In this document: piece after piece, positions 2,628 through 30,382 of the stretch
Position numbering within the stretch: the first letter of the stretch is position 1
How the letters are laid out: every line of letters begins with the position of its first letter
Source: Desulfobacter sp.
GTDB taxonomy: Bacteria; Desulfobacterota; Desulfobacteria; Desulfobacterales; Desulfobacteraceae
Direction: 5' to 3'
Length of the DNA: 64,000 nucleotides
Assembly (NCBI GenBank): GCA_028768545.1
Contig: CP054838.1
Location: 3,903,001 to 3,967,000 of the forward strand
The notes under the pieces: model-generated
What the model was told of the DNA's origin: nothing
The model's input: the letters and a program-made list of their open reading frames with translations, nothing else
The model's database searches: none
Made by a program: the position numbers and the translations under genes

Positions 2628-3932
2628 ATGCCCATTTACGACATTGACTTTGAAACCATGCCCAGGGAAGGCCTGGAAGCCATACAATTACGAAGGCTCC
2701 AGACCACCATTGAGCGGATTTATGCCACCGTCCCCTTTTACAAGGAGACCTATAAAAAAGCCGGTATCACTCCCGGAGACATAAAAACCTTAGATGACTT
2801 GAGGCGTCTGCCCTTTACCACCAAAACAGATCTGCGGGACAACTATCCCTATGATATGTTTGCCGTGCCCATGGAACAGGTCGTCCGCATCCATGCCTCT
2901 TCAGGCACCACAGGCAAACCCACGGTGGTGGGATACACCAAGCGGGATATTTCCACCTGGGCAGATCTCATGGCCAGAAGCATGTCGGCAGCCGGTGCCA
3001 CCCAGGGAGATATCATTCACAATGCCTGGGGCTATGGGCTTTTCACCGGAGGGCTTGGGGCACACTACGGTGCCGAACGACTGGGCGCATCTGTGATCCC
3101 TGTTTCCGGCGGCAACACCAAACGTCAGATCACCATCATGCAAGATTTTAAACCCACCATTCTCTGCGGAACCCCCTCTTATATTCTTCACCTGGCAGAG
3201 GTTGCCGATGAAATGGGAGTCGATTTCAGGGATCTCCACTTTAAATCCGGTATTTTCGGGGCAGAGCCCTGGACCGAAAAAATGCGCCAGGAACTCGAGG
3301 CAAAGCTCAACCTAAAAGCCGTTGACATCTACGGTCTGTCCGAGGTGATGGGCCCAGGGGTCTCTGTTGAATGCGTTGAAGAACAGGCTGGCCTCCATGT
3401 ATGTGAAGACCATTTCATCGTCGAGGTGGTGGACCCGGATACCCTGGAACCCGTCCCTTACGGAGACCCGGGAGAATTGGTGTTCACCTCTATCACCAAA
3501 GAGGCCTTTCCTGTCATCCGCTATCGGACCAAGGATATCACCTCTTTGAATCCTATTCCCTGCACCTGCGGCAGAACCCATGTCAGGATGAACAAACCCA
3601 CGGGCAGAACCGATGACATGCTCATTATCCGGGGGGTTAATGTATTCCCCTCCCAGATCGAAAGCGTTCTCATGGAAACCCGTGAAATTGCCCCCCACTA
3701 TCAAATGGAAGTGGACAGGGTAGATAATTTAGACACCCTGACCGTAAAAGTAGAAATTGACGACACCATGTTCAGTGACGATATCAAGGGGCTCCAGTCC
3801 ATGGAATCCAAAATTTCCCATGATATTAAAGAACATCTCGGCGTTTCTGCCAAAGTGGCTTTAGTGGAGCCTAAAACCATTGAACGAAGCCAGGGCAAAG
3901 CCGTCCGGGTCATAGATAAACGTAAACTATAA
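2628..3932 (+). CDS. paaK: Phenylacetate-CoA ligase (PaaK family)
   Basis: ANL-superfamily ligase forming an aryl-CoA from an aryl acid, ATP and CoA. The protein is 434 residues, the normal PaaK size. It has the family N-terminus ([20 protein letters not shown]), an intact phosphate loop [16 protein letters not shown] near residues 88-103, the [11 protein letters not shown] block, and the C-terminal [20 protein letters not shown] hinge and lid. A Shine-Dalgarno (GGGAGAAAAACC) precedes the ATG. The gene is followed after 35 bases by a double-ACT protein. In anaerobic deltaproteobacteria this pair often accompanies indolepyruvate oxidoreductases in aromatic amino acid breakdown; no such gene lies in this window. 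Compare the divergent paralogue at 25572-26852. Confidence 0.93.
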
Positions 3933-3967
3933 GCTCAAGGGTAAAAACACCTTAAAGGAGAAAAAAT

Positions 3968-4399
3968 ATGATGGCTGAACAGATATCCGTATTTATCGAA
4001 AACAAGGAAGGCCGCCTGGCTGAAGTCACCGCAATCCTAAGGGACGCCCAGGTCAACATCAGAGCCCTTTCCCTTGCAGACACCACGGATTTTGGTGTGC
4101 TGCGCCTTATTGTGAACGACAATGACAAAGCCACGGCAGCTCTAAAAAGTCAAGGATTCACCGTGGGCAAAACCCAAGTGCTTGCCGTGGAGGTCAGTGA
4201 TGAGCCCGGGGGCCTGAACCGGGTACTGGACCCCTTAAGCGAGTTGGACGTCAATGTGGAATACATGTACGCCTTTGCCAATCCCCAGTGCAAAAATGCC
4301 ATCATGATTTTCCGGTTTGACGATATTATAAAGGCAAAAGAAATTCTTACACAAAACAAAATAAAAGTCATTAACGCCCAGGAAATCTGTAGCCTATAA
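3968..4399 (+). CDS. Tandem ACT-domain protein
   Basis: A 143-residue protein made of two ACT domains (about residues 4-68 and 71-138). ACT domains bind small ligands, usually amino acids. The first has the classic pattern ISVFIENKEGRLAEVTAIL and NIRALSLADT; the second has AVEVSDEPGGLNRVLDPLSE. No catalytic domain is present. Stand-alone double-ACT proteins are regularly found next to paaK in anaerobes, so it probably senses an aromatic or branched amino acid and modulates the pathway (inference). AAAGGAG lies seven bases before the chosen ATG; a second ATG follows immediately. Confidence 0.88.
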   Translation: MMAEQISVFIENKEGRLAEVTAILRDAQVNIRALSLADTTDFGVLRLIVNDNDKATAALKSQGFTVGKTQVLAVEVSDEPGGLNRVLDPLSELDVNVEYMYAFANPQCKNAIMIFRFDDIIKAKEILTQNKIKVINAQEICSL

Positions 4400-12770: not shown

Positions 12771-14099
12771 ATCCCAATTCAGTAGTGTCCGGTTAGGTTG
12801 TTGCATATAAAAAGCATCTAAAATCATTGAAAAAACAGTCTGTTTTGTGTTGACAAATGTGCGTAAAAATTTTTGTGCGCCTTGAAAATTTAACTCAAGG
12901 AGCTCAAATGACGCACATCTCAGTCCCTAAAAAACAACTACGGTCCCTGAACTTTGACAATTTCAGGTGCCCTCTGATAAAGTCACTTTCAAAAGCACCG
13001 GAATTACAATCTCGAGGAGACCGCCCTTTAAAAATGACATTCGAAGACCAGATAAATGCTTTGGTTTATTTCCATCTTCAGGAGCACAAGTCTGCCCGAC
13101 ATTTAATTCAGGATCTCAAGGAGAATGTTTTTGCTAAAGAAAATATTGCGCCAGACGGTGGTATCAGCCGTAGTAGTTTCTGTGAAGCCATCAATCACAG
13201 GGGACTCGAACAACTGCAATTTATCTTTGAGGATCTTTATAAACAGGCTCTTGAGTGTCATCCGGGTGAACACGCCGAGTTAGGAGAGTTGGTTTCCATT
13301 GACGGTAGTCTCATAAATGCAGTCCTTTCAATGCACTGGGCGAACTACAGAAAAGGAAGTAAAAAAGCCAAAGTACATTGCGGATTTGACATTAATCACG
13401 GAATCCCAAACAAAATCTTTTTGACTGAAGGCAACGGCGCTGAACGCACTTTTGTTCCCAAAATACTTTCCAAGGGGCAAACAGGTGTTATGGATCGTGG
13501 ATATCAATCCCATAAAGAATTTGACCTGCTTCAGGAGCAAGGCAAACATTTTGTCTGCCGTATAAAAACCAGGACAACAAGAACAATTATTGATAACCAC
13601 GAGACCCCTTCCGACAGCTACATTTTTTATGATGCACTGGTTAAACTTGGTACTCCGAATCAAAACCAGACGAAAAGGCCTGTTCGGGTTGTTGGCTATA
13701 AAATTGCTGGCGTCAAATACTATGTGGCAACTGACAGGCATGATTTAACAGCGGAACAAATAGCAACAATTTATAAACTCCGGTGGACCATTGAGGATTT
13801 TTTCAAATGGTGGAAAGAACATCTGAAGGTATATCATCTCATTGCCCGCAGTGAATACGGCCTTATGGTTCAGATTCTTGGCGGCCTTATCACTTACCTG
13901 TTACTGGCAATCCATTGCCAAAAACAGTTTAATGAAAAGGTCACGATCAAAAGAGTTCGGCAGCTGCGAACCGCCATTCTAAATGACCTGTTTGGCTGCG
14001 AGGAGCAGGGCTCTCATAGTTCAAACAGGGACAATATTGTCAAAGATCAAAAAATTATTGAGCAAGCAAAAACCTAACCGGACATCACTGATCCCAATT
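12771..14099 (+). mobile_element. IS4-family insertion sequence, copy 1
   Basis: The element itself is 12780-14090 (1311 bases), bounded by imperfect inverted repeats CAGTAGTGTCCGGTTAGGTT and, from the right, CAGTGATGTCCGGTTAGGTT. It is flanked by a perfect 9-base target duplication ATCCCAATT (12771-12779 and 14091-14099). Copy 2 at 36477-37787 has the same length and ends and only a few base differences, so both insertions are recent. Confidence 0.95.
12908..14077 (+). CDS. IS4-family transposase
   Basis: A DDE transposase of 389 residues. The first Asp is in VSIDGSLINA, the second in TGVMDRGYQSHKE, and the IS4 signature Y-(2)-R-(3)-E-(6)-K is in YKLRWTIEDFFKWWK. I start at the ATG preceded by AAGGAG (MTHISVPKKQLRSL); the frame is open to 12857 but without a better site. 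The gene appears intact. Confidence 0.94.
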   Translation: MTHISVPKKQLRSLNFDNFRCPLIKSLSKAPELQSRGDRPLKMTFEDQINALVYFHLQEHKSARHLIQDLKENVFAKENIAPDGGISRSSFCEAINHRGLEQLQFIFEDLYKQALECHPGEHAELGELVSIDGSLINAVLSMHWANYRKGSKKAKVHCGFDINHGIPNKIFLTEGNGAERTFVPKILSKGQTGVMDRGYQSHKEFDLLQEQGKHFVCRIKTRTTRTIIDNHETPSDSYIFYDALVKLGTPNQNQTKRPVRVVGYKIAGVKYYVATDRHDLTAEQIATIYKLRWTIEDFFKWWKEHLKVYHLIARSEYGLMVQILGGLITYLLLAIHCQKQFNEKVTIKRVRQLRTAILNDLFGCEEQGSHSSNRDNIVKDQKIIEQAKT

Positions 14100-14100
14100 A

Positions 14101-14166
14101 AAAAAAAACAAATAAAACAAATAAAACAAATAAAACAAATAAAACAAATAAAACAAATAAAACAAA
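14101..14166 (+). repeat. 9-base tandem repeat (CAAATAAAA)n
   Basis: Six full copies of a 9-base unit plus partial ends, directly beside the right target duplication of IS4 copy 1. Because the unit is three codons (Gln-Ile-Lys) it keeps the reading frame of the interrupted small ORF, and copy number could vary without frameshift. Confidence 0.9.
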
Positions 14167-16248: not shown

Positions 16249-17715
16249 GAGAGTCGGGGAATGTTCAGAATTCTGTGTCACGGTTTCGGTTCCCGGATCT
16301 GCCTCAGCGCCAGCGGAAGTAAAAGTCAGGTCCGAGAATGGGCCTTCAATCAGCCACGTCGGAGGAGTTGACTTTTGCTGGAGTGGAGTTCCTGGAACCA
16401 TCTTTTCCATCTGTAAATAAATCCCTATCAAATTCCCAGCTCTTTATCCAGCCGGCCTTCAAAGAAAATTGCCAACTGGGAAATTGTCAGTGACCAATTT
16501 TGAATCGGTATTGTCCATTTTTTACTGGCGTTCTGGATCCCCATGTAAAGCAGCTTTAACAGGCTGTCCTGGTTCGGGAATGATCCCTTTGTTTTGGTCA
16601 GTTTTCGAAACTGTCGATGCACAGCCTCAATGGTATTTGTGGTGTATATTATCCGTCGAATCTCTTCTGGATATTTAAAGAAATGACTGAGGCGTTCCCA
16701 GTTGTTCCGCCAGGATTTTATCACAATCGGGTATTTGTCATTCCATTTATTTTCCAAGATATCCAGTTCTTCTTCGGCCAGATCCTTATTGACCGCTTTA
16801 TAAACACGTTTTAGATCTGCCATAAATTCCTTTTTATTTTTGGAACCAACGTATTTCAATGAATTTCGGATCTGGTGGACTACGCAGAGTTGAACTTCTG
16901 TGTCCGGGAATATGGTCTCAATGGCCTCGGGAAAACCTTTTAGACCATCAACACAGGCAATCAGGATATCTTTTACCCCTCGGTTTGAAAGGTCTGTTAA
17001 CACCTGCAGCCAGAAGTTCGCACCCTCATTCTCGGATATGTACAGCCCAAGAACCTCTTTGCGGCCCTCGATATTCACCCCAAGAATTGTGTAAACGGCC
17101 TTGCTGCCGACCTTTCCGTTTTCTCGTACTTTATAATGTATGGCATCAAGCCATACGATTGGGTACACATTTTCCAACGGCCTGGCCTGCCATTCTTTGA
17201 CGGTATGGATGATTTTATCGGTAATGGTGCTCAGAGTGGCATTTGAAATCTCAAGTCCATAGATTTCCTGTAAATGGGAAGCCATATCATTATAACTCAT
17301 GCCCAGGCCGTAAAGGGCTATTATCTTTCTTTCAATTTCATCGCTGAGCGTTGTCTGATGTTTTTTGACGATCTGTGGAGAGAAGGTTCCGGCCCTGTCA
17401 CGCGGGGTTTCTAGCTCAAATTTACCATCCAGGGATTTAATGGTCTTTTTGCTTTTTCCATTACGGCGGTTGGCAGAAACTTCCTGCCCGAGATGGGACT
17501 CCAACTCTCCTTCAAGAGCAGCTTCAGCAAGATTTTTGATTAATGATGTAAGGACGCCGCCCTTACCTGTGAAGGGTTTACCTTCCTGGATGCCTTTAAG
17601 GGCTTTTTGAAAATCAAATTCGGTGTTTTCTTCGGTCATGTCAGTTCTCCTTATTTAGCTGAGTATATCAGCTTTCATTCAACTGACACAGAATTTTGAA
17701 CGCCCTCGAGAGTCG
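16249..17715 (-). mobile_element. IS256-family element, copy A
   Basis: The element is 16257-17707 (1451 bases) with imperfect inverted repeats (GAGGGCGTTCAAAATTCTGT and GGGAATGTTCAGAATTCTGT) and an 8-base duplication GAGAGTCG (16249-16256, 17708-17715). It is inserted inside the ISLre2 transposase gene, so it arrived later than that element. Confidence 0.95.
16428..17639 (-). CDS. IS256-family (mutator type) transposase
   Basis: An intact 403-residue transposase. The DDE residues lie in PIVWLDAIHYKV, ILIACVDGLKGF and YTTNTIEAVHRQF; the CVVHQIRNSLKYV block between them is typical of the family. AAGGAG precedes the ATG by eight bases. It differs from copy B by one residue near the end (WTIPIQ here, WTMPIQ there). 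Confidence 0.95.
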   Translation of the reverse strand: MTEENTEFDFQKALKGIQEGKPFTGKGGVLTSLIKNLAEAALEGELESHLGQEVSANRRNGKSKKTIKSLDGKFELETPRDRAGTFSPQIVKKHQTTLSDEIERKIIALYGLGMSYNDMASHLQEIYGLEISNATLSTITDKIIHTVKEWQARPLENVYPIVWLDAIHYKVRENGKVGSKAVYTILGVNIEGRKEVLGLYISENEGANFWLQVLTDLSNRGVKDILIACVDGLKGFPEAIETIFPDTEVQLCVVHQIRNSLKYVGSKNKKEFMADLKRVYKAVNKDLAEEELDILENKWNDKYPIVIKSWRNNWERLSHFFKYPEEIRRIIYTTNTIEAVHRQFRKLTKTKGSFPNQDSLLKLLYMGIQNASKKWTIPIQNWSLTISQLAIFFEGRLDKELGI

Positions 17716-20473: not shown

Positions 20474-20672
20474 ACCCCCATGGTTCTGGCCGGTGCAAAA
20501 TAATATTTTTTTATATTAGGAACTTTGTTCAAATCCATTAATTTTCTATACCTAAAAAAAGATTTCACAGAACTTTCACAGGTATTTCCAGCCCTTCCCC
20601 TTTGATCTGGTTTGGCGCAAGTATCTGTGTTCTTTAAAAATGCTTAACACCTTTGGCAGGGTCCTTTAGGTA

Positions 20673-20688
20673 TGTACGAGCCTGTACA
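20673..20688 (+). promoter_or_regulatory. Palindrome TGTAC-N6-GTACA upstream of leader
   Basis: A perfect 5-base inverted repeat 11 bases before the Shine-Dalgarno of the leader peptide. It could be an operator for a dimeric regulator or a small 5' hairpin in the leader RNA. No regulator is known for it. Confidence 0.35.
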
Positions 20689-20707
20689 TTTTAAATTTGG
20701 AGAAAAA

Positions 20708-20791
20708 ATGATTTTCCGGTATTTTAATTTTTTTATATTTACACTCTTTAGCGGCTTCTTTATGGGGTCTGCCTGTGGAGAGTTTATGTAA
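20708..20791 (+). CDS. Phe-rich leader peptide of the liv operon
   Basis: A 27-codon ORF with a strong ribosome site (GGAG at 20699-20702, five bases before ATG). Nine of its 27 residues are Phe (positions 3, 6, 8, 9, 11, 14, 17, 18, 26), as in MIFRYFNFFIF. It ends 27 bases before a terminator hairpin, and its last codons can pair with that hairpin's 5' arm (see the attenuator entry). This layout matches Phe-type transcription attenuation leaders such as pheA and pheST. The alternative is a tiny membrane peptide or lipoprotein whose Phe content follows from T-rich DNA. It is too short for normal gene calling. Confidence 0.55.
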   Translation: MIFRYFNFFIFTLFSGFFMGSACGEFM

Positions 20792-20856
20792 AATATCGGA
20801 AGATATCAGGTAAACTCGAACCATGGGCAGACTGGCAGCCAGTACCCATGGTTTTT
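20767..20856 (+). promoter_or_regulatory. Transcription attenuator: antiterminator and terminator
   Basis: Terminator: AACCATGGG (20819-20827) pairs with CCCATGGTT (20845-20853), with an inner stem ACTGG/CCAGT, followed by TTTTT. Competing antiterminator: 20767-20778, inside the leader peptide codons, pairs with 20821-20832 over 12 consecutive pairs including two G-U. If ribosomes stall at the early Phe codons the antiterminator can form and transcription continues. If they reach the stop codon they cover the 20767-20778 strand and the terminator forms. The regulated genes would be livKHMGF and the paaK-like gene. Pairing was worked out by eye, not by energy calculation. Confidence 0.55.
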
Positions 20857-20979
20857 GTATTTAAGGGACTGTGGGGAAATTCGACCCGCATTTTAAGTTT
20901 TCAGTCAGTTCTGGGTCGAGCCAATAAAACCCATGGGTAATTTTCATATTTTAATCATTTTTTTAAATTAAAGGAGAAA

Positions 20980-22131
20980 ATGAAAATGGTAATGAAAAAA
21001 ATGGCAATTGCCGCCCTGGCCCTGACCCTTATCTGTTTACCCGCATCAGGCCTCATGGCCGGGACCGTGTATAAGGTGGGGGGCATTTTCTCTTCCACCG
21101 GCCGGGCCTCTTTTCTGGGGGATCCGGAAAAAAAGACCATGGAAATGATGGTCGAAAAAATCAATGCCCAGGGCGGTATTGACGGAGTCATGCTCGAAGC
21201 GGTGATCTATGATTCAGAAGGCGACCCTGCCAAGGCGGTGAGCGCTGTAAACAAGCTGATCCACAAGGACAAGGTTTTGGCCATCATCGGTCCTTCAACC
21301 ACACCCACAACCCTGGCCATTGTCAATTTTGTAGAACGGGCAAAAGTGCCTTTGATCTCCTGCGCCGCAGGCGTTAAGATCACCTCGCCTGTAAAACCCT
21401 GGGTATTTAAGACCGCCCAGAGCGATCTTCTGGCCGTGGCTGCCGTGTATCAGCATATGCAGGCGGCAGGCATTAAAAAAATCGGGGTGCTGACCGTGTC
21501 CAACTCCTTTGGGGAAAGCGGGAAACACCAGCTTTTAAACCAGGCTGAACATTTTGGTCTGGAAGTAGTAAAAGCGGAAAGCTTCGGGGCCAAGGATACA
21601 GATACCACAGCCCAGCTTACCAAGATCAAGGCCGCCTCTCCTGATGCCATTGTCTGCTGAGGAACCAATCCCGGACCTGCGGTTGTCGCTAAAAACGTCA
21701 AACAGCTTAAGATTGATCTTCCCTTGTACCAAAGCCATGGGGTTGCCTCTCCCAAATTCATCGAGCTTGCAGGGGATGCAGCAGAAGGCATTATTCTGCC
21801 CACAGGCAAAATTCTGGTCACCCCGCTTTTAGATGAGACTGATGTTCAAAAAAAGATCCTCACCAGCTACCAGAATAACTATCACGCCAAATACAAGGGC
21901 AATGTCTCAGGGTTCGGCGGGTATGCCTATGATGCTGTAAACATTCTTGCAGCAGCCCTCAAAGGAAGCAATGGAGACAAGGATAAAATCCGCCAGGCCC
22001 TTGAAGCCACACAAAATCATGTGGGCGCCACAGGTGAATTTAACTTTTCGGCCAAGGATCACAATGGGCTGTCTCCTGAAGCCTTTGTCATGGTGGAAAT
22101 TAAAAACAGCACCTGGAAACTGATCAAATAA
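20980..22131 (+). pseudogene. livK: LIV-type substrate-binding protein with in-frame TGA
   Basis: A periplasmic binding protein of the branched-chain/aromatic amino acid ABC family. The first 25 or so residues are a signal peptide (MKKMAIAALALTLICLPASG). The type I fold follows, with YDSEGDPAKAVSAVNKLI and IIGPSTTPTTLAIV. The frame is stopped by TGA at 21658-21660 within DAIVC-stop-GTNPGPAVVAKN and then runs on, fully alignable, to 22131 (383 codons in total). Family members usually have Trp here (WGT), so one G-to-A change of TGG explains it. The codon before is Cys, so Cys-Sec readthrough was considered, but I see no good SECIS hairpin just after the TGA. AAAGGAG supports the ATG. Confidence 0.88.
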
Positions 22132-22179
22132 ACATGGTCACCCATGAAAATCTCCCAGCTTATTATTTAAGGTAAATCC

Positions 22180-23055
22180 ATGCAGGAAATCATTCAGTAT
22201 CTTTTTTCAGGCATTACCACCGGCGCCATATATGCGGTGATTGCCGTGGGTCTGTCCATGCTCTACGCCTCAACCGAACTCATCAACTTTGCCCATGGGG
22301 AATTTGTCATGGTCGGAGCCATGGCACTGGTCACCCTCTGGGTTCACCTGGGCCTGCCCCTGCCCATCGCAATGGCAGGGGCTGTGCTCCTGGGCTGTGT
22401 CCTGGGGCTCTTGTTTGAACGATTTGCCATACGCCAGGTCAAAACCCCCAACCCCATTGTCCTTGTGATCATCACCGTGGGGGCCTCTATTTTTCTGCGG
22501 GGCCTTGGAATGGTGGCCTGGGGAAAAGACCCTTTCAGCATTCCCTCTTTTTCCAGTCATGACTCCATTGAAATTGCAGGGGCAGCACTTTTGCCCCAGA
22601 GCATCTGGATTGTGGGAACAGCCCTGCTCCTGGCAGGAGGCATTCATTTTTTCCTTAAAAAAACCCTCATGGACAAAGCCATGGTGGCCTACGCCGTAAA
22701 TCAGACGGCTGCCTTTCTCACTGGCATTCCATCGGAAAGAATGGGGGTGCTGGCCTTTGCCATCAGCACGGGATGCGGCGCCATTGCCGGGATCTTTATT
22801 GCCCCCATCACCATGAGTTCCTATGATATGGGCACCATGCTGGGGCTCAAAGGCTTTTGCGCGGCAATGATCGGGGGACTTGGAAGTCTCTGGGGCGCCT
22901 TTGCCGGAGGAATTTTGCTGGGGGTGCTGGAATCTTTGGGCGCCGGCCTGATTTCATCGGGCCTCAAGGATGCCATTGCCTTTATTCTGCTTCTCCTGAT
23001 CCTCTATGTCCGTCCCGGAGGCATTTTTTCAGCCCAGGAGGCCAAACGGTTTTAA
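22180..23055 (+). CDS. livH: LIV-type ABC transporter permease LivH
   Basis: A 291-residue inner-membrane permease with about eight hydrophobic segments. Typical LivH text includes GAIYAVIAVGLSMLYAS, INFAHGEFVMVGAM and the EAA-like loop GLKGFCAAMIGGLGSLWGAF near residue 230, which docks on the ATPase. It lies 48 bases after livK and one base before the livM start. Confidence 0.94.
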   Translation: MQEIIQYLFSGITTGAIYAVIAVGLSMLYASTELINFAHGEFVMVGAMALVTLWVHLGLPLPIAMAGAVLLGCVLGLLFERFAIRQVKTPNPIVLVIITVGASIFLRGLGMVAWGKDPFSIPSFSSHDSIEIAGAALLPQSIWIVGTALLLAGGIHFFLKKTLMDKAMVAYAVNQTAAFLTGIPSERMGVLAFAISTGCGAIAGIFIAPITMSSYDMGTMLGLKGFCAAMIGGLGSLWGAFAGGILLGVLESLGAGLISSGLKDAIAFILLLLILYVRPGGIFSAQEAKRF

Positions 23056-23056
23056 T

Positions 23057-24013
23057 ATGGATGCCATCAAGAAACAACACTGGAGAGAAAACACCATCTT
23101 TCTGGGACTGATCCTCCTGGCCGGAGGCATGACCGAAAACACCTACTATCTCCAGATCATGACCTTTATCGGCATCAACACCCTTTTGGCATTGGGGCTT
23201 AATATGCTCATGGGGTATGCAGGCCAGGTATCACTTGGCCATGCCGCCTTTTACGGTATCGGGGCCTATACCACGGCCATTCTGTCCGGCAGCTTTGGAT
23301 TTTCCCCCTGGATCGCCCTGGTCTGTGCTGTGGCCTGTGCCGTATTCATTGCCCTTGTGGTGGGACTTCCCACCCTCCGTCTCTCGGGATACTATCTGGG
23401 AATGGGCACCCTGGGGTTTGGCATGATCGTTAATATTTTATTCAGGGAATGGTCCAGTGTGACCGGCGGTGCTTCCGGGTTTGTGGGAATTCCCGTACTC
23501 CAAGCAGGACCGGTCTCTTTTATGTCGGGGAAAAACTATTTTTTTCTGGTCTGGGGAGTGGTGCTTCTGGCCATCCTTGTCTGCAAAAGAATTTTATCCT
23601 CGCGCATGGGAAGAGGGCTGCGCGCCATCCATGACGGGGAAAACGCCGCCCTGGCCGTGGGCGTAAACACCCATTATCTAAAACTTCAGATCTTTATGTT
23701 TTCGGCAGCCCTGGGCGCTGTGGCCGGATTCTTATATGCCCATTTTGTCCTTTTTATCTCCCCTGAGTCCTTTGGATTCATGGTTTCAGTAAAAATGGTA
23801 ACCATGGTGGTTATCGGCGGGATGACCAGTGTCTGGGGGGCTGTTTTAGGGGCTGCCCTGCTCACCCTTTTACCCGAAGTTCTCCACGGGTTTGCCGAGT
23901 ATGAAATGATCATTTTCGGCCTGATCCTCATGACGGTGATGATTTTCATGCCCCAGGGCCTGACCCGGGGATTTATTGATATTTACCAGAGGGCAAGGAA
24001 AAAAAGACAATGA
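23057..24013 (+). CDS. livM: LIV-type ABC transporter permease LivM
   Basis: A permease of 318 residues starting at MDAIKKQHWRENTIF; the longer frame to 23006 lies inside livH and is not used. The N-terminal part has GLNMLMGYAGQVSLGHAAFY, the conserved LivM signature. The C-terminal docking loop is KMVTMVVIGGMTSVWGAVLG. About nine membrane helices are expected. It overlaps livG by four bases (ATGA). Confidence 0.94.
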   Translation: MDAIKKQHWRENTIFLGLILLAGGMTENTYYLQIMTFIGINTLLALGLNMLMGYAGQVSLGHAAFYGIGAYTTAILSGSFGFSPWIALVCAVACAVFIALVVGLPTLRLSGYYLGMGTLGFGMIVNILFREWSSVTGGASGFVGIPVLQAGPVSFMSGKNYFFLVWGVVLLAILVCKRILSSRMGRGLRAIHDGENAALAVGVNTHYLKLQIFMFSAALGAVAGFLYAHFVLFISPESFGFMVSVKMVTMVVIGGMTSVWGAVLGAALLTLLPEVLHGFAEYEMIIFGLILMTVMIFMPQGLTRGFIDIYQRARKKRQ

Positions 24014-24828
24014 TATCCCCTTCAAAAAAAGAGATGGACCGTTCCAGGGATGATAAAAAGAGCCAGGCCCGAAAAATTCTCAAGGTTCAGGGCCTGACCA
24101 AGATGTTCGGAGGGGTCAGGGCCCAGGACAATATCAGTTTTTCCATTGAACAAGGCATTGTATGCGGGCTGATCGGCCCCAACGGGGCAGGCAAGACCAC
24201 CTTGTTCAACATGATCACAGGAATTTACCCCCCGGACAAGGGACAGGTGATTTTCAACGAGAAAGACACCCGTAAAATGGCGGTGCACCAGCGGGTCAAG
24301 GCCGGCATTGCAAGGACCTTTCAGCATGTGGAGCTGTTCAGCTCCATGACCCTGGTTGAAAATATCATGGTCGGCATGCATGTCAGAACAAAGACCGGAT
24401 TCTGGGGCGCTGTGACCTGCCTGCCCTGGGTACAAAAGGAAGAAAAACAGGCCCGGCAGAAAGCCTTTGATCTCCTTGAGTTTACCGGGTTGAGCCCGTA
24501 TGCCCAAACCCCTGCCTGCGACCTTCCTGTGGGCCGCCAGAAAATGGCGGAGATTGCCAGGGCCCTGGCCTCAGATCCCCTTTTACTGCTTTTGGACGAA
24601 CCGGCCGCAGGCCTCAATGCCGTAGAGACCGAGACCTTGGGCAAACTCATTGCACGGGTCAAAAAAAAGGGGGTGACCATGATGCTAGTGGAACACGACA
24701 TGAGCCTTGCCATGGGGATCTCAGACAAAATCATTGTCCTTGACCAGGGCATAAAACTGGCCCAGGGCACCCCAAGACAAATTCAGAACAATGAAGCGGT
24801 CATGGCCGCCTACCTGGGACAGGGGTAA
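24010..24828 (+). CDS. livG: LIV-type ABC transporter ATPase LivG
   Basis: A 272-residue ATP-binding subunit. Walker A is GPNGAGKTTLFN, the Q-loop region is ARTFQHVELF, Walker B is LLLLDEPAAGLN and the H-loop is MLVEHDM. The usual ABC signature LSGGQ is replaced by LPVGRQKMAEIARAL, which is normal for LivG proteins. Residues 1-22 are a charged extension before the core and may be mistranslated if the true start is later. Confidence 0.94.
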   Translation: MISPSKKEMDRSRDDKKSQARKILKVQGLTKMFGGVRAQDNISFSIEQGIVCGLIGPNGAGKTTLFNMITGIYPPDKGQVIFNEKDTRKMAVHQRVKAGIARTFQHVELFSSMTLVENIMVGMHVRTKTGFWGAVTCLPWVQKEEKQARQKAFDLLEFTGLSPYAQTPACDLPVGRQKMAEIARALASDPLLLLLDEPAAGLNAVETETLGKLIARVKKKGVTMMLVEHDMSLAMGISDKIIVLDQGIKLAQGTPRQIQNNEAVMAAYLGQG

Positions 24829-24831
24829 TTC

Positions 24832-25575
24832 ATGCTCAAGATTAAAAATCTTAAATGCCGTTACGGCAGTATTGTGGCCATTCACGGGGTCAGCCTCTCG
24901 GTTAAGCAAGGAGAGCTGATCTCCATTATCGGGGCCAACGGGGCCGGAAAAAGCTCTTTGCTCCTGGCCATTTGCGGGCTTTTAAAAAACTGGTCAGGAG
25001 AAATCTTTTTCAAGGATCTCCCCATCAAGGGGATGTCTCCTCCGGCCATTGTCAAGTCCGGTATCAGCATGGTGCCCGAAGGCCGGCAGATTTTTTATCC
25101 CTTGAGTGTCATGGACAATCTTGAAATGGGGGCCTTTACCCGGTACCAAAAGGGAGAAAAAAAACAAGTGGCAAAGGACTTTGAGATGGTCATGGATATG
25201 TTCCCCATTTTAAGGAAACGGGCAGACCAGCTGGCAGGGACGTTGTCCGGCGGAGAGCAGCAGATGCTGGACATTGCCAGAGCCTTGATGGCAAGACCCT
25301 CCCTCCTTGTTCTGGACGAGCCCTCCATGGGGCTTGCCCCGAAATTTGTGGAGATGATTTTTAAGACCGTCCAGCACCTGAGAAACCAGGGGGTGACCAT
25401 CCTTTTGGTGGAACAAAATGCCAGGGCCGCACTCAAAATTTCTGACCGGGGCTATGTGCTTGAAACCGGAAAAATGGTACTCCAGGGCAGTGCAGATGAA
25501 CTTTTAGTGGATGATGATGTCAAGCGGGCCTATCTGGGTCAGGATTATGGGAATTTTTATGACGGGAGGGATTGA
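24832..25575 (+). CDS. livF: LIV-type ABC transporter ATPase LivF
   Basis: A 247-residue ATPase partner of LivG. Walker A is GANGAGKSSLL, the signature is LSGGEQQMLDIARALM, Walker B is LLVLDEPSMGLAP and the H-loop is ILLVEQN. It begins three bases after livG and overlaps the following paaK-like gene by four bases, so the ligase is part of the transport operon. Confidence 0.95.
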   Translation: MLKIKNLKCRYGSIVAIHGVSLSVKQGELISIIGANGAGKSSLLLAICGLLKNWSGEIFFKDLPIKGMSPPAIVKSGISMVPEGRQIFYPLSVMDNLEMGAFTRYQKGEKKQVAKDFEMVMDMFPILRKRADQLAGTLSGGEQQMLDIARALMARPSLLVLDEPSMGLAPKFVEMIFKTVQHLRNQGVTILLVEQNARAALKISDRGYVLETGKMVLQGSADELLVDDDVKRAYLGQDYGNFYDGRD

Positions 25576-26852
25576 TGATGCCGGATATGACCTTTGAAGA
25601 AAAAGAACAACTCAAACTGGAAAGACTCCAGAGCACCTTGAACCGGGCCTATAAAAATGTTCCCTTCCACCGCAAACGGTTCACGGAGAATACGCTTCTT
25701 CCCCAGGATATTGTGGCTCTCAAGGATATTGTGGCTCTCAAGGATATTGAAAAACTGCCCTTTATGGACCGATCCCATTTGAGCACCCATTACCCTTACG
25801 GTCTATTTGCCGTGCCCCTAAGGGACATCGTTCGTATCCATACCGCTCCCGGAACAGGAAAAAATCCATCCATCAGCGGATATACCAAGGCAGATCTTTT
25901 GATCTGGAAAAAACTTGTGGCCAGAAGCTATGAGGCTGCCGGCATCACCCAGATGGATATTATCCAGATTCACCTGCCCCCGGGACTTGCCAATTGGGGA
26001 CGGGATTACAAAGACGGGGGCGAGGCTGTGGGGGCAGGGGTTATTCCAAACAGCTCACTTTCCCTGTCAAAAACCTTGATGGTGATCAGGGATTATAAAA
26101 CCACCACCCTTGTCACCACCCCTGCCTTTGCAGAAAAGCTCATGGCGCATATGTTTGACCTGGGCCAGAACCCCAATGAACTCAACCTCAAGCGGATCAT
26201 TCTTGTGGGAGAACCTGTGACCGGGAAAACCTTATCTAACCTGGCAGAACGCCTGCATGTGGATGTGTGGCTCAATTACGGACTCAGTGAAATCCCGGGA
26301 CCAGCCATTGCCCATGACTGCGGCACAACACCCTTGGGAACAGACCATGGCCATCGCCTCCTCCACATCAATGACGATCATATTTTACCGGAAATCATAG
26401 ATCCTGAAACAGGCACCCGGGTTGAATCCGGAAAAAAAGGAGAATTGGTACTGACCACACTTTCGGCCAGGGCCTTGCCCCTGATCCGGTTCCGCACAGG
26501 CGACATGGCAAAATTTGTGACCCAGCCCTGCGGGTGCGCCTCTGTTTTGATGAAAATTGAATGGCTGGACGAACGGGCGGATAATGCGATCATCATTTCC
26601 GGAATCAAGGTCAGCCGGGACCAGGTAAAACAATATCTTAAGGCCGCCTTAAAATGCAAAACCCCTGACTGCACCATGGAAAAAATCCGCCAGAACGGCA
26701 GTGAAATCCTCATGATCTCCCTGGTCATGGATGAGACGCTTTTTTCCGACGAAATCAAGGGACTGGAAAGACTCATGGCCGGCACCCAGAAAAAACTCAC
26801 AGAACAGACAGGCATCCCTGTCAAAATCGGCCTGGTTCAAAAAAGGGAATAA
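25572..26852 (+). CDS. Divergent PaaK-like aryl-CoA ligase
   Basis: A 426-residue ANL-family protein close in size and layout to the PaaK at 2628, including LQSTLNRAYKNVPFHRKRF and LNYGLSEIPGPAIAHDCGT. The phosphate loop is altered: HTAPGTGKNPSISGYT where the other gene has [16 protein letters not shown]. The lid reads RADNAIIISGIKVSRDQVKQ rather than [11 protein letters not shown]. These changes make ordinary adenylation doubtful. An exact 18-base duplication (GGATATTGTGGCTCTCAA, from 25708) adds six residues. It is translationally coupled to livF, so it may activate the imported acid or act as a regulator. Confidence 0.84.
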   Translation: MMMPDMTFEEKEQLKLERLQSTLNRAYKNVPFHRKRFTENTLLPQDIVALKDIVALKDIEKLPFMDRSHLSTHYPYGLFAVPLRDIVRIHTAPGTGKNPSISGYTKADLLIWKKLVARSYEAAGITQMDIIQIHLPPGLANWGRDYKDGGEAVGAGVIPNSSLSLSKTLMVIRDYKTTTLVTTPAFAEKLMAHMFDLGQNPNELNLKRIILVGEPVTGKTLSNLAERLHVDVWLNYGLSEIPGPAIAHDCGTTPLGTDHGHRLLHINDDHILPEIIDPETGTRVESGKKGELVLTTLSARALPLIRFRTGDMAKFVTQPCGCASVLMKIEWLDERADNAIIISGIKVSRDQVKQYLKAALKCKTPDCTMEKIRQNGSEILMISLVMDETLFSDEIKGLERLMAGTQKKLTEQTGIPVKIGLVQKRE

Positions 26853-27385: not shown

Positions 27386-28851
27386 GCTTTTTCGAGGGCG
27401 TTCAAAATTCTGTGTCAGTTAAATGAAAGCTGATATACTCAGCTAAATAAGGAGAACTGACATGACCGAAGAAAACACCGAATTTGATTTTCAAAAAGCC
27501 CTTAAAGGCATCCAGGAAGGTAAACCCTTCACAGGTAAGGGCGGCGTCCTTACATCATTAATCAAAAATCTTGCTGAAGCTGCTCTTGAAGGAGAGTTGG
27601 AGTCCCATCTCGGGCAGGAAGTTTCTGCCAACCGCCGTAATGGAAAAAGCAAAAAGACCATTAAATCCCTGGATGGTAAATTTGAGCTGGAAACCCCGCG
27701 TGACAGGGCCGGAACCTTCTCTCCACAGATCGTCAAAAAACATCAGACAACGCTCAGCGATGAAATTGAAAGAAAGATAATAGCCCTTTACGGCCTGGGC
27801 ATGAGTTATAATGATATGGCTTCCCATTTACAGGAAATCTATGGACTTGAGATTTCAAATGCCACTCTGAGCACCATTACCGATAAAATCATCCATACCG
27901 TCAAAGAATGGCAGGCCAGGCCGTTGGAAAATGTGTACCCAATCGTATGGCTTGATGCCATACATTATAAAGTACGAGAAAACGGAAAGGTCGGCAGCAA
28001 AGCCGTTTACACAATTCTTGGGGTGAATATCGAGGGCCGCAAAGAGGTTCTTGGGCTGTACATATCCGAGAATGAGGGTGCGAACTTCTGGCTGCAGGTG
28101 TTAACAGACCTTTCAAACCGAGGGGTAAAAGATATCCTGATTGCCTGTGTTGATGGTCTAAAAGGTTTTCCCGAGGCCATTGAGACCATATTCCCGGACA
28201 CAGAAGTTCAACTCTGCGTAGTCCACCAGATCCGAAATTCATTGAAATACGTTGGTTCCAAAAATAAAAAGGAATTTATGGCAGATCTAAAACGTGTTTA
28301 TAAAGCGGTCAATAAGGATCTGGCCGAAGAAGAACTGGATATCTTGGAAAATAAATGGAATGACAAATACCCGATTGTGATAAAATCCTGGCGGAACAAC
28401 TGGGAACGCCTCAGTCATTTCTTTAAATATCCAGAAGAGATTCGACGGATAATATACACCACAAATACCATTGAGGCTGTGCATCGACAGTTTCGAAAAC
28501 TGACCAAAACAAAGGGATCATTCCCGAACCAGGACAGCCTGTTAAAGCTGCTTTACATGGGGATCCAGAACGCCAGTAAAAAATGGACAATGCCGATTCA
28601 AAATTGGTCACTGACAATTTCCCAGTTGGCAATTTTCTTTGAAGGCCGGCTGGATAAAGAGCTGGGAATTTGATAGGGATTTATTTACAGATGGAAAAGA
28701 TGGTTCCAGGAACTCCACTCCAGCAAAAGTCAACTCCTCCGACGTGGCTGATTGAAGGCCCATTCTCGGACCTGACTTTTACTTCCGCTGGCGCTGAGGC
28801 AGATCCGAGAACCGAAACCGTGACACAGAATTCTGAACATTCCCGCTTTTC
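27386..28851 (+). mobile_element. IS256-family element, copy B
   Basis: The element is 27394-28844 (1451 bases), with the same ends as copies A and C. The target duplication is GCTTTTTC on the left (27386-27393) and GCTTTTC on the right (28845-28851), differing by one T in a T run. Inserted in a lipoprotein gene on the opposite strand. Confidence 0.93.
27462..28673 (+). CDS. IS256-family transposase, intact
   Basis: 403 residues, with the same DDE landmarks as the copy at 16428 (WLDAIHYKV, CVDGLKGF, TNTIEAVHR). This is the intact reference for the degraded copy at 60680. AAGGAG precedes the ATG. Probably able to act. Confidence 0.95.
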   Translation: MTEENTEFDFQKALKGIQEGKPFTGKGGVLTSLIKNLAEAALEGELESHLGQEVSANRRNGKSKKTIKSLDGKFELETPRDRAGTFSPQIVKKHQTTLSDEIERKIIALYGLGMSYNDMASHLQEIYGLEISNATLSTITDKIIHTVKEWQARPLENVYPIVWLDAIHYKVRENGKVGSKAVYTILGVNIEGRKEVLGLYISENEGANFWLQVLTDLSNRGVKDILIACVDGLKGFPEAIETIFPDTEVQLCVVHQIRNSLKYVGSKNKKEFMADLKRVYKAVNKDLAEEELDILENKWNDKYPIVIKSWRNNWERLSHFFKYPEEIRRIIYTTNTIEAVHRQFRKLTKTKGSFPNQDSLLKLLYMGIQNASKKWTMPIQNWSLTISQLAIFFEGRLDKELGI

Positions 28852-29905: not shown

Positions 29906-30382
29906 TTATACCCGATGCTCTTCTTCCAAATCCAGGGTCAGTTTTTTTTTGTCCTTGATGCTGTCAATAACAAAAGATGATTGGATTTTTTGGATCCCCT
30001 GAATCTGGGTGAGTTTGTTGTTCATGAACTCGCCATAAGCCTTGATATCCCTGGCGATGACCTTGAGAATGAAATCATTGGCTCCTGCAATCTGATAGCA
30101 CTCAATCACCTCTTCAAGCTGGCAGAATCGTTCCTTGATCTGTGCAACCGAGGACAGCTTGCTTAAACTCAGGGAGATGGAAACCAGGGCCATGATGGAA
30201 AAACCGATCTTTTCGTGGTCCACCACTGCCGTGAAATGAGAAATCACCCCTGAAAGTTCCAGGCGCTTGACCCGCTCCAGAGTTGCCGGCGCAGAAATCC
30301 CCACAATTTTAGACAATTTTGCATTGGTCATTTTCCCATTTTCCTGAAGGGTATTAAGTATTTTTTTATCGATTCTGTCCAA
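29906..30382 (-). CDS. Lrp/AsnC-family transcriptional regulator
   Basis: A 158-residue regulator with an N-terminal winged helix (IDKKILNTLQENGKMTNAKL, then VGISAPATLERVKRLELSGV) and a C-terminal RAM ligand domain (about 65-145, with CYQIAGANDFILKVIARD). Members bind amino acids and control their metabolism or transport. A divergent acyltransferase gene lies 180 bases away. It is also a plausible regulator of the nearby amino acid genes, but nothing here shows that. Confidence 0.92.
   Translation of the reverse strand: MDRIDKKILNTLQENGKMTNAKLSKIVGISAPATLERVKRLELSGVISHFTAVVDHEKIGFSIMALVSISLSLSKLSSVAQIKERFCQLEEVIECYQIAGANDFILKVIARDIKAYGEFMNNKLTQIQGIQKIQSSFVIDSIKDKKKLTLDLEEEHRV

Follow-up and report, generated by a model that had tools for sequence, protein, structure and literature searches.

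Why should an operon for a LIV-type transporter and a PaaK-like protein be preceded by a short open reading frame (ORF) rich in phenylalanine (Phe) codons and by RNA that can fold in mutually exclusive ways? This arrangement is found in a stretch of 64,000 nucleotides from Desulfobacter sp. (contig CP054838.1), called the window in the following. With a probability of roughly 0.9 positions 20644-20894 form a transcription attenuator ahead of livKHMGF-paaK2 in which a translating ribosome senses charged Phe-tRNA, and comparison with related genomes points to a conserved Phe attenuator of an operon for uptake and activation of aryl acids that appears to be wired like a biosynthetic one. The elements of the leader region are the following.

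20644-20672, plus strand: promoter-like site, TTAACA (20644-20649), 17 nt, TAGGTA (20667-20672), from the sequence and own-genus relatives
20699-20702, plus strand: ribosome site GGAG of the leader ORF, read in the sequence
20708-20791, plus strand: Phe-rich leader peptide MIFRYFNFFIFTLFSGFFMGSACGEFM, ATG to TAA, 27 codons, 9 of them Phe
20711-20726, plus strand: arm 1, codons 2-7, part of the MFE fold
20767-20778, plus strand: arm 2, codons 20-24, 5' side of the antiterminator, GTCTGCCTGTGG (folding, pairing, covariation)
20789-20804, plus strand: partner of arm 1, beginning at the stop codon (pairing test against shuffles)
20819-20856, plus strand: terminator 1 (arms 3:4) with T run (folding)
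20821-20832, plus strand: arm 3, CCATGGGCAGAC, 3' side of the antiterminator and 5' side of terminator 1 (folding, covariation)
20845-20851, plus strand: arm 4, CCCATGG, pairing with arm 3 or arm 5 (pairing, covariation)
20869-20875, plus strand: arm 5, CTGTGGG, pairing with arm 4 or arm 6 (pairing, covariation)
20885-20894, plus strand: arm 6, CCCGCA and TTTT, terminator 2, weak here (-9.0 kcal/mol) and stronger in relatives

How might these elements work together? From their arrangement we infer that the leader is translated, that it responds to Phe and in which direction control runs. When Phe is plentiful, the ribosome would reach the stop codon and cover arm 2, arm 3 would pair with arm 4 and transcription would stop, and the second hairpin could catch leakage past terminator 1. 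When Phe is short, the ribosome would stall on a Phe codon, covering arm 1 and leaving arm 2 free; the free arm 2 would capture arm 3, the freed arm 4 would capture arm 5, and with 2:3 and 4:5 formed the polymerase would continue into livKHMGF-paaK2.

In the window the leader ORF with its ribosome site lies upstream of the terminator, and antiterminator and terminator exclude each other through one common arm. A preliminary description of this DNA had pointed to the 27-codon ORF with a good ribosome site and nine Phe codons, to 12 consecutive base pairs between 20767-20778 and 20821-20832, and to the terminator at 20819-20856. All of these are present at those positions, the two arms pairing at 12 of 12 positions including two G-U pairs. 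Folding in competing states, which had been proposed as a check, bears this out, with -54 kcal/mol for 20690-20860 (z -4.55, 0 of 200 shuffles as good), -35.0 kcal/mol for the antiterminator region 20755-20835 (z -6.85) and -22.4 kcal/mol for the terminator region 20810-20865 (z -4.07). Pairings that the description did not contain are 1) a prolongation of the antiterminator by GAGTTTA (20780-20786) with TAAACTC (20811-20817); 2) the pairing of arm 1 with 20789-20804, which 3 of 500 shuffles equal; 3) the pairing of arm 4 with 20869-20875 at 7 of 7 positions, the latter segment doubling as 5' arm of a second hairpin that is weak in the window. Over the length of the leader ORF the three frames contain 9, 2 and 4 Phe codons (ORF frame first), and base shuffles contain 3.8 ± 1.4 as compared to the real 9 (p about 0.001, 1000 shuffles). 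The earlier caveat that T-rich DNA favours Phe codons by chance is justified as far as composition goes, the ORF having a G+C content of only 35%, but T-richness alone is insufficient as the cause of nine such codons. In own-genus relatives the promoter-like site at the corresponding place reads TTGACA-17-TAGGTA. A simple pattern scan of the window listed neither the terminator at 20819-20856 nor the promoter-like site at 20644-20672, and terminator 1 was probably missed owing to its internal loop and large loop. The covariance models of Rfam release 15 gave no gathering hit in the window, and the only match of 20600-20980 by E-value was SAM_alpha on the minus strand (11.7 bits, E 4.6); an Rfam riboswitch or known leader was ruled out on the ground that no family matched.

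How widely is this leader found? With the PaaK2 protein as query the operon was found in 59 genomes, that of the window included, and about 9 kb upstream of PaaK2 were read in 24 other genomes, 20 of which have livK. In the window, G008, G011 and G020 livK is preceded by an intact leader; homologous Phe leaders were seen before livK in the latter three genomes and in G033, G092 and G025, and G014 has a version with Tyr and Phe codons. Within the family, a search with model R1 gave 25 places in 21 of 86 genomes. Of these places 18 precede livK, 3 true PaaK (G025, G092, G033), 3 DAHP synthase and 1 ADH synthase; the targets at L087 and L081 were named by NCBIfam, and the remaining two DAHP synthases were recognised from the similarity of their N-terminal residues. 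The refined model R2 matched 87 of 389 genomes of the order, in 38 of 150 genera, at 92 places, of which 20 are in the own family and 72 outside. Behind the 61 outside places that were read, the 11 weak ones being left out, stand PaaK (57), livK (2) and ADH synthase (1), one place giving no match, and these PaaK proteins are 66-75% identical to the PaaK of the window. A search of 395 genomes of the phylum gave matches in 22, of which 19 lie outside the order. Of these 19, 17 were read: PaaK follows directly in 9 and further on in 1, and the remaining 7 have an ORF that begins like a DAHP synthase, an identity that NCBIfam bore out for L237. The target named in the preliminary description, a LIV transporter and a PaaK-like ligase, thus holds for the window, but outside the own family it is chiefly true PaaK. 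When loci were picked by the PaaK protein alone, 8 of the 30 best-scoring loci of 118 genomes had the leader, two of them (G127 and G153) identified through the earlier locus reading and not by the threshold of the script, and one (G262) printed with a helix that differs from the usual one. The leader before PaaK is common but patchy.

For comparison of the leaders a set of 55 intact homologues was used, 42 from the 61 outside-family loci and 13 from earlier leaders. From the 61, two duplicates (L118, L139) were dropped, and 17 loci (L125, L138, L147, L151, L152, L156, L159, L165, L166, L167, L170, L172, L173, L176, L177, L181, L183) were left out for an unclear or truncated start, no Phe ORF at the expected place or another target. 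Phe makes up a mean share of 28% of the codons versus 10% after base shuffling, figures that do not describe an unbiased sample since the choice of loci favours Phe-rich ORFs and both models were built from such leaders. After the start codon 429 of 1456 codons are Phe, 81 Tyr and 5 Trp; the Phe content lies above 95% of base shuffles in 53 of the 55 leaders, and in every one the highest Phe content is that of frame 0. At one leader column Phe is found in 47 of 52 sequences, as TTT in 18 and as TTC in 29, a change of base that preserves the amino acid, and the GC-richer homologue L161 (54% G+C) still has 6 Phe codons among 27. The excess of Phe codons is therefore conserved in homologues, despite losses within the own genus that are described below.

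Are the alternative pairings conserved as well? All 46 distinct arm sets were compared, taken from the 49 of the 55 leaders that have the arm 5 motif. The 2:3 pairing, which is favoured by the placement of arm 2 by best fit to arm 3 (arms 3, 4 and 5 were placed by motif), is 96.4% paired, with five double-changing pairs and 22 double-change cells (0 of 500 shuffles). The 3:4 pairing is 99.4% paired, with two double-changing pairs and 4 double-change cells (0 of 500 shuffles). The 4:5 pairing is 88.9% paired, with 27 double-change cells (0 of 500 shuffles) and four double-changing pairs, although this latter count of double-changing pairs and the count of pair types are not above shuffles (432 and 129 of 500 reach them). 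Slid controls gave pair counts below 50% throughout, and counting on 34 of the 46 arm sets gave the same outcome. Exchanges between arms 2 and 3 comprise GTCTG/CAGAC, GTCTA/TAGAC, GTCTT/AAGAC and GCCTG/TAGGC, and arm 2 starts 22 nt before the stop codon in 38 of 49 leaders. Complete 4:5 pairing (7 of 7) occurs in 30 of the 43 leaders (of 55) in which arm 4 was found, where 1.5 would be expected with the downstream sequence shuffled, and in 37 of the 49 with the arm 5 motif. Furthermore, arms 5 and 6 pair at 6 or more of 7 positions in the 32 leaders in which the arm 6 motif was found, and in many relatives a second hairpin with arm 5 as its 5' side is followed by a T run. Across 13 leaders the 1:2 pairing is matched by at most 50 of 500 shuffles (10% level) in 8, and by 77 to 393 in the other 5. 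The six segments thus follow the chain 1:2, 3:4, 5:6 versus 2:3, 4:5, with 4:5 intact and 5:6 weak in the window. Given the 4:5 pairing and the second hairpin with T run in relatives, 1:2, 3:4 and 5:6 together would form the off state and 2:3 with 4:5 the on state. The covarying arms among homologues that the preliminary description had suggested looking for are present in 2:3 and 3:4, and also in 4:5, which it had not listed; it is by these arms and the conserved Phe codons of the leader ORF that amino acid attenuation by Phe, as then proposed, is the best reading of the layout.

The genes that would be controlled, and those that form the other half of the operon in relatives, are given here.

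2628-3932, plus strand: PaaK, without leader, other operon half of relatives, family match below the equivalog cut-off
3968-4399, plus strand: ACT-domain protein (Pfam), without leader, other operon half of relatives
20980-22131, plus strand: livK-type binding protein, with an in-frame TGA at 21658-21660
22180-25575, plus strand: livH, livM, livG and livF, family matches below equivalog cut-offs
25572-26852, plus strand: PaaK2, PaaK-like, without the C-terminal lysine segment (motif comparison)

Eleven PaaK leader loci of the author's choice were extended. Seven of them have the order PaaK-ACT-livKHMGF-PaaK2, 2 have PaaK-ACT-liv but no PaaK2, and the last 2 have just PaaK-ACT, one of these at a contig edge; in three of the eleven the liv genes share no more than 37-55% identity with those of the window, so that orthology there is uncertain. 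In the window the operon consists of two halves, PaaK-ACT (2628-4399) and livKHMGF-PaaK2 (20980-26852), 16.6 kb apart. Both halves carry a Phe leader in G033, G025 and G092, and in the window genome the liv half only, no Phe attenuator being seen before the window's own PaaK. The simplest reading would be that the operon was split and that each half took a copy of the attenuator.

The liv operon is bracketed by two nearly identical genes of 403-aa Mutator-family transposases in opposite orientation (16428-17639 and 27462-28673). Beyond it an Lrp/AsnC-type regulator is encoded on the minus strand (29906-30382), and an ORF with the same start as this regulator adjoins paaK2 in G008 and G011.

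Two of the proteins deserve comment. At the site of the livK TGA all 20 orthologous livK genes that were read have Trp, which excludes selenocysteine and suggests a nonsense mutation or a sequence error; the operon may therefore be failing in this strain though its leader is intact. Moreover, PaaK2 lacks two conserved catalytic motifs of PaaK, the SSGTTG P-loop and the GKA lysine segment at the C-terminus: both are absent in 18 of 18 PaaK2 proteins, their C-termini read to the stop codon, and both present in 7 of 7 PaaK proteins. PaaK2 is therefore probably not a working ligase, and might be a conserved pseudo-enzyme tied to the liv transporter.

What would such an operon do when Phe is short? 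We infer that the function of the wider operon, PaaK-ACT-livKHMGF-PaaK2, is to import phenylacetate or a similar acid and to activate it, so that a cell short of Phe can make or save this amino acid. Synthesis of Phe from phenylacetate has been reported for anaerobes (PMC7356843, citing Allison 1965). Such a route, described for other organisms than these, would account for the control of an aryl-CoA ligase by Phe, and a ligase of this kind induced by Phe shortage fits the salvage of Phe from phenylacetate. It is conceivable, at somewhat less than even odds, that Desulfobacterota make Phe from scavenged phenylacetate by an operon induced on Phe starvation, whose LivKHMGF would take in the acid and whose PaaK would activate it for an indolepyruvate ferredoxin oxidoreductase (IOR) running reductively. 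The operon would be under a domino attenuator with two terminators, the second of which is disarmed by arm 4 once 2:3 has released that arm. Prephenate dehydratase was found in 8 of 8 genomes tested and IOR alpha above the cut-off likewise in 8 of 8. An IOR gene beside the operon was dropped as a candidate since iorA had no match in the 11 extended stretches. If this reading is true, the PaaK of Desulfobacterota would be biosynthetic and not catabolic. Gene regulation can indicate in which direction metabolism runs, and the apparent wiring of these genes makes it a testable proposal that PaaK-ACT-liv clusters in sulfate reducers and their relatives be re-annotated as aryl-acid salvage.

Alternatively, the same attenuator could control an operon that simply takes up aromatic amino acids, Phe or others, with high affinity, PaaK and the ACT-domain protein being present for some other reason. 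Liv-type transporters carry amino acids, in the own genus only the liv half is under the leader, and PaaK2 looks inactive, all of which would suit such a role. However, the leader outside the own family precedes PaaK and not livK (57 of 61 loci read), and the liv-type genes stand behind PaaK in 9 of the 11 extended loci. Such a role is less likely than not, if still to be reckoned with.

Could the leader, conversely, respond to an excess? The direction of control is suggested by the company that the leader keeps. In the window genome pheA (L110) has an aromatic leader of its own, MNFTENRYFYFCTPFKRGPACLW, followed by a terminator-like hairpin, and three relatives have pheA leaders likewise; pheA is also described as attenuated in E. 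coli and other gammaproteobacteria (PMC5343134). In addition, leaders with Phe, Tyr or Trp codons and terminator-like hairpins precede DAHP or ADH synthases in relatives (L087, L082, L083, L081, L183, L231, L235-L239, L242). Genes named for phenylacetate degradation and for transport of branched-chain amino acids appear to be wired to Phe shortage in many families of a single phylum, like pheA and DAHP synthase. A catabolic inducible leader of the kind of TnaC, which acts through a ribosome arrest motif, would work in the opposite sense, an excess of Phe or aryl acid stalling the ribosome and inducing degradation through PaaK. PaaK is indeed named for phenylacetate degradation, albeit with a family match below the equivalog cut-off. 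Against this, the leaders have many scattered Phe codons and not one arrest motif, and their counterparts stand before pheA, DAHP synthase and ADH synthase, which are needed when Phe is short, so that induction by excess is very improbable. The scan for aromatic ORFs also met LFYLFYLFYLFYLFYLFYLFFFNWDQ (14085-14165, minus strand), an ORF from repetitive DNA that is probably not a leader.

Does the RNA require a translating ribosome at all? Homologues in many cases keep both Phe codons and pairing, on which the preliminary description had staked its proposal, but 12 of the 16 own-genus genomes read (of 19) are without the intact ATG-started leader that the other 4 have. Nine of the 12 have the arm region and the terminator, and an ATG-started Phe frame through arm 2 was not found in them (G003, G004, G005, G006, G009, G010, G015, G016, G018): in G003 a TTG-started ORF has 5 Phe codons of 23 and a separate ATG-started ORF with 4 ends earlier, and in G004, G015 and G018 the Phe frame is interrupted by stops. 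One (G013) has lost the peptide and kept the terminator alone, and two (G002, G017) are without leader, a promoter-like site lying close to the livK ribosome site with nothing in between. The leader before livK was also not found in G019, of another genus. These losses count against strict conservation, and the case that the preliminary description had named as a refutation, homologous loci without Phe codons or pairing, is present in part; they can also be read as a natural deletion series within one genus, in which the start codon is lost, the peptide deleted or the whole leader deleted.

Stalled ribosomes were modelled for the 55 leaders. With RNA up to arm 3 only, stalls at those Phe codons where arm 2 stays uncovered give a mean P(2:3) of 0.92, with values above 0.5 in 53 of 55 leaders, as compared to a mean of 0.44 for no ribosome; with the ribosome at the stop codon P(2:3) is zero by construction, arm 2 being covered. 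In 31 of the 55 leaders a stalled ribosome raises P(2:3) by more than 0.2 over no ribosome; in 25 of 55 2:3 forms readily without one (0.99 in the window). Once terminator 1 is complete, an equilibrium model gives switching in just 18 of 55 leaders, so that the attenuator would need kinetic folding. Attenuation is usually kinetic, and more weight was therefore given to the test with arm 3 just transcribed. Nevertheless, the equilibrium switch model fails for most leaders, and this real weakness was counted against the attenuator.

A structured leader that binds a protein or metabolite and acts independently of translation, the ORF being incidental, would account for the nine relatives that keep arms and terminator without the Phe frame and for the formation of 2:3 without ribosome in 25 of 55 leaders. 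It would leave unexplained why the Phe frame is conserved in many families with TTT/TTC exchange, and no Rfam family matches, for which reasons it is given hardly any credence. Mere coincidence of T-rich DNA and an accidental 12-mer, which only the low G+C content of the leader ORF invites, is practically negligible in view of the shuffles, the other frames, the GC-richer L161 and the covariation.

How does the proposed Phe attenuator compare with known systems? The literature search, which covered titles and the beginnings of abstracts, found no Phe attenuator of paaK or liv genes, which is weak evidence of absence as most subscription papers were outside its coverage. The class of mechanism is known; the set of targets and the chained double terminator that the leader displays are new to us. 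In E. coli pheL and pheM, the leaders of pheA and pheST, are Phe attenuators, and hisL, the leader of the his operon, has six segments. With pheL and pheM the leader shares a short Phe-rich ORF, arms pairing as 2:3 and 3:4 and putatively as 1:2, an intrinsic terminator and a Phe-related target. It differs from them in that the targets are liv transporter genes and PaaK, that a second terminator is chained by 4:5, and that it has no Rfam match. With hisL it shares the domino topology of 1:2, 3:4 and 5:6 against 2:3 and 4:5. In contrast to hisL, the amino acid here would be Phe, and a T run follows 3:4 and in many relatives 5:6 as well, which gives both hairpins the look of terminators.
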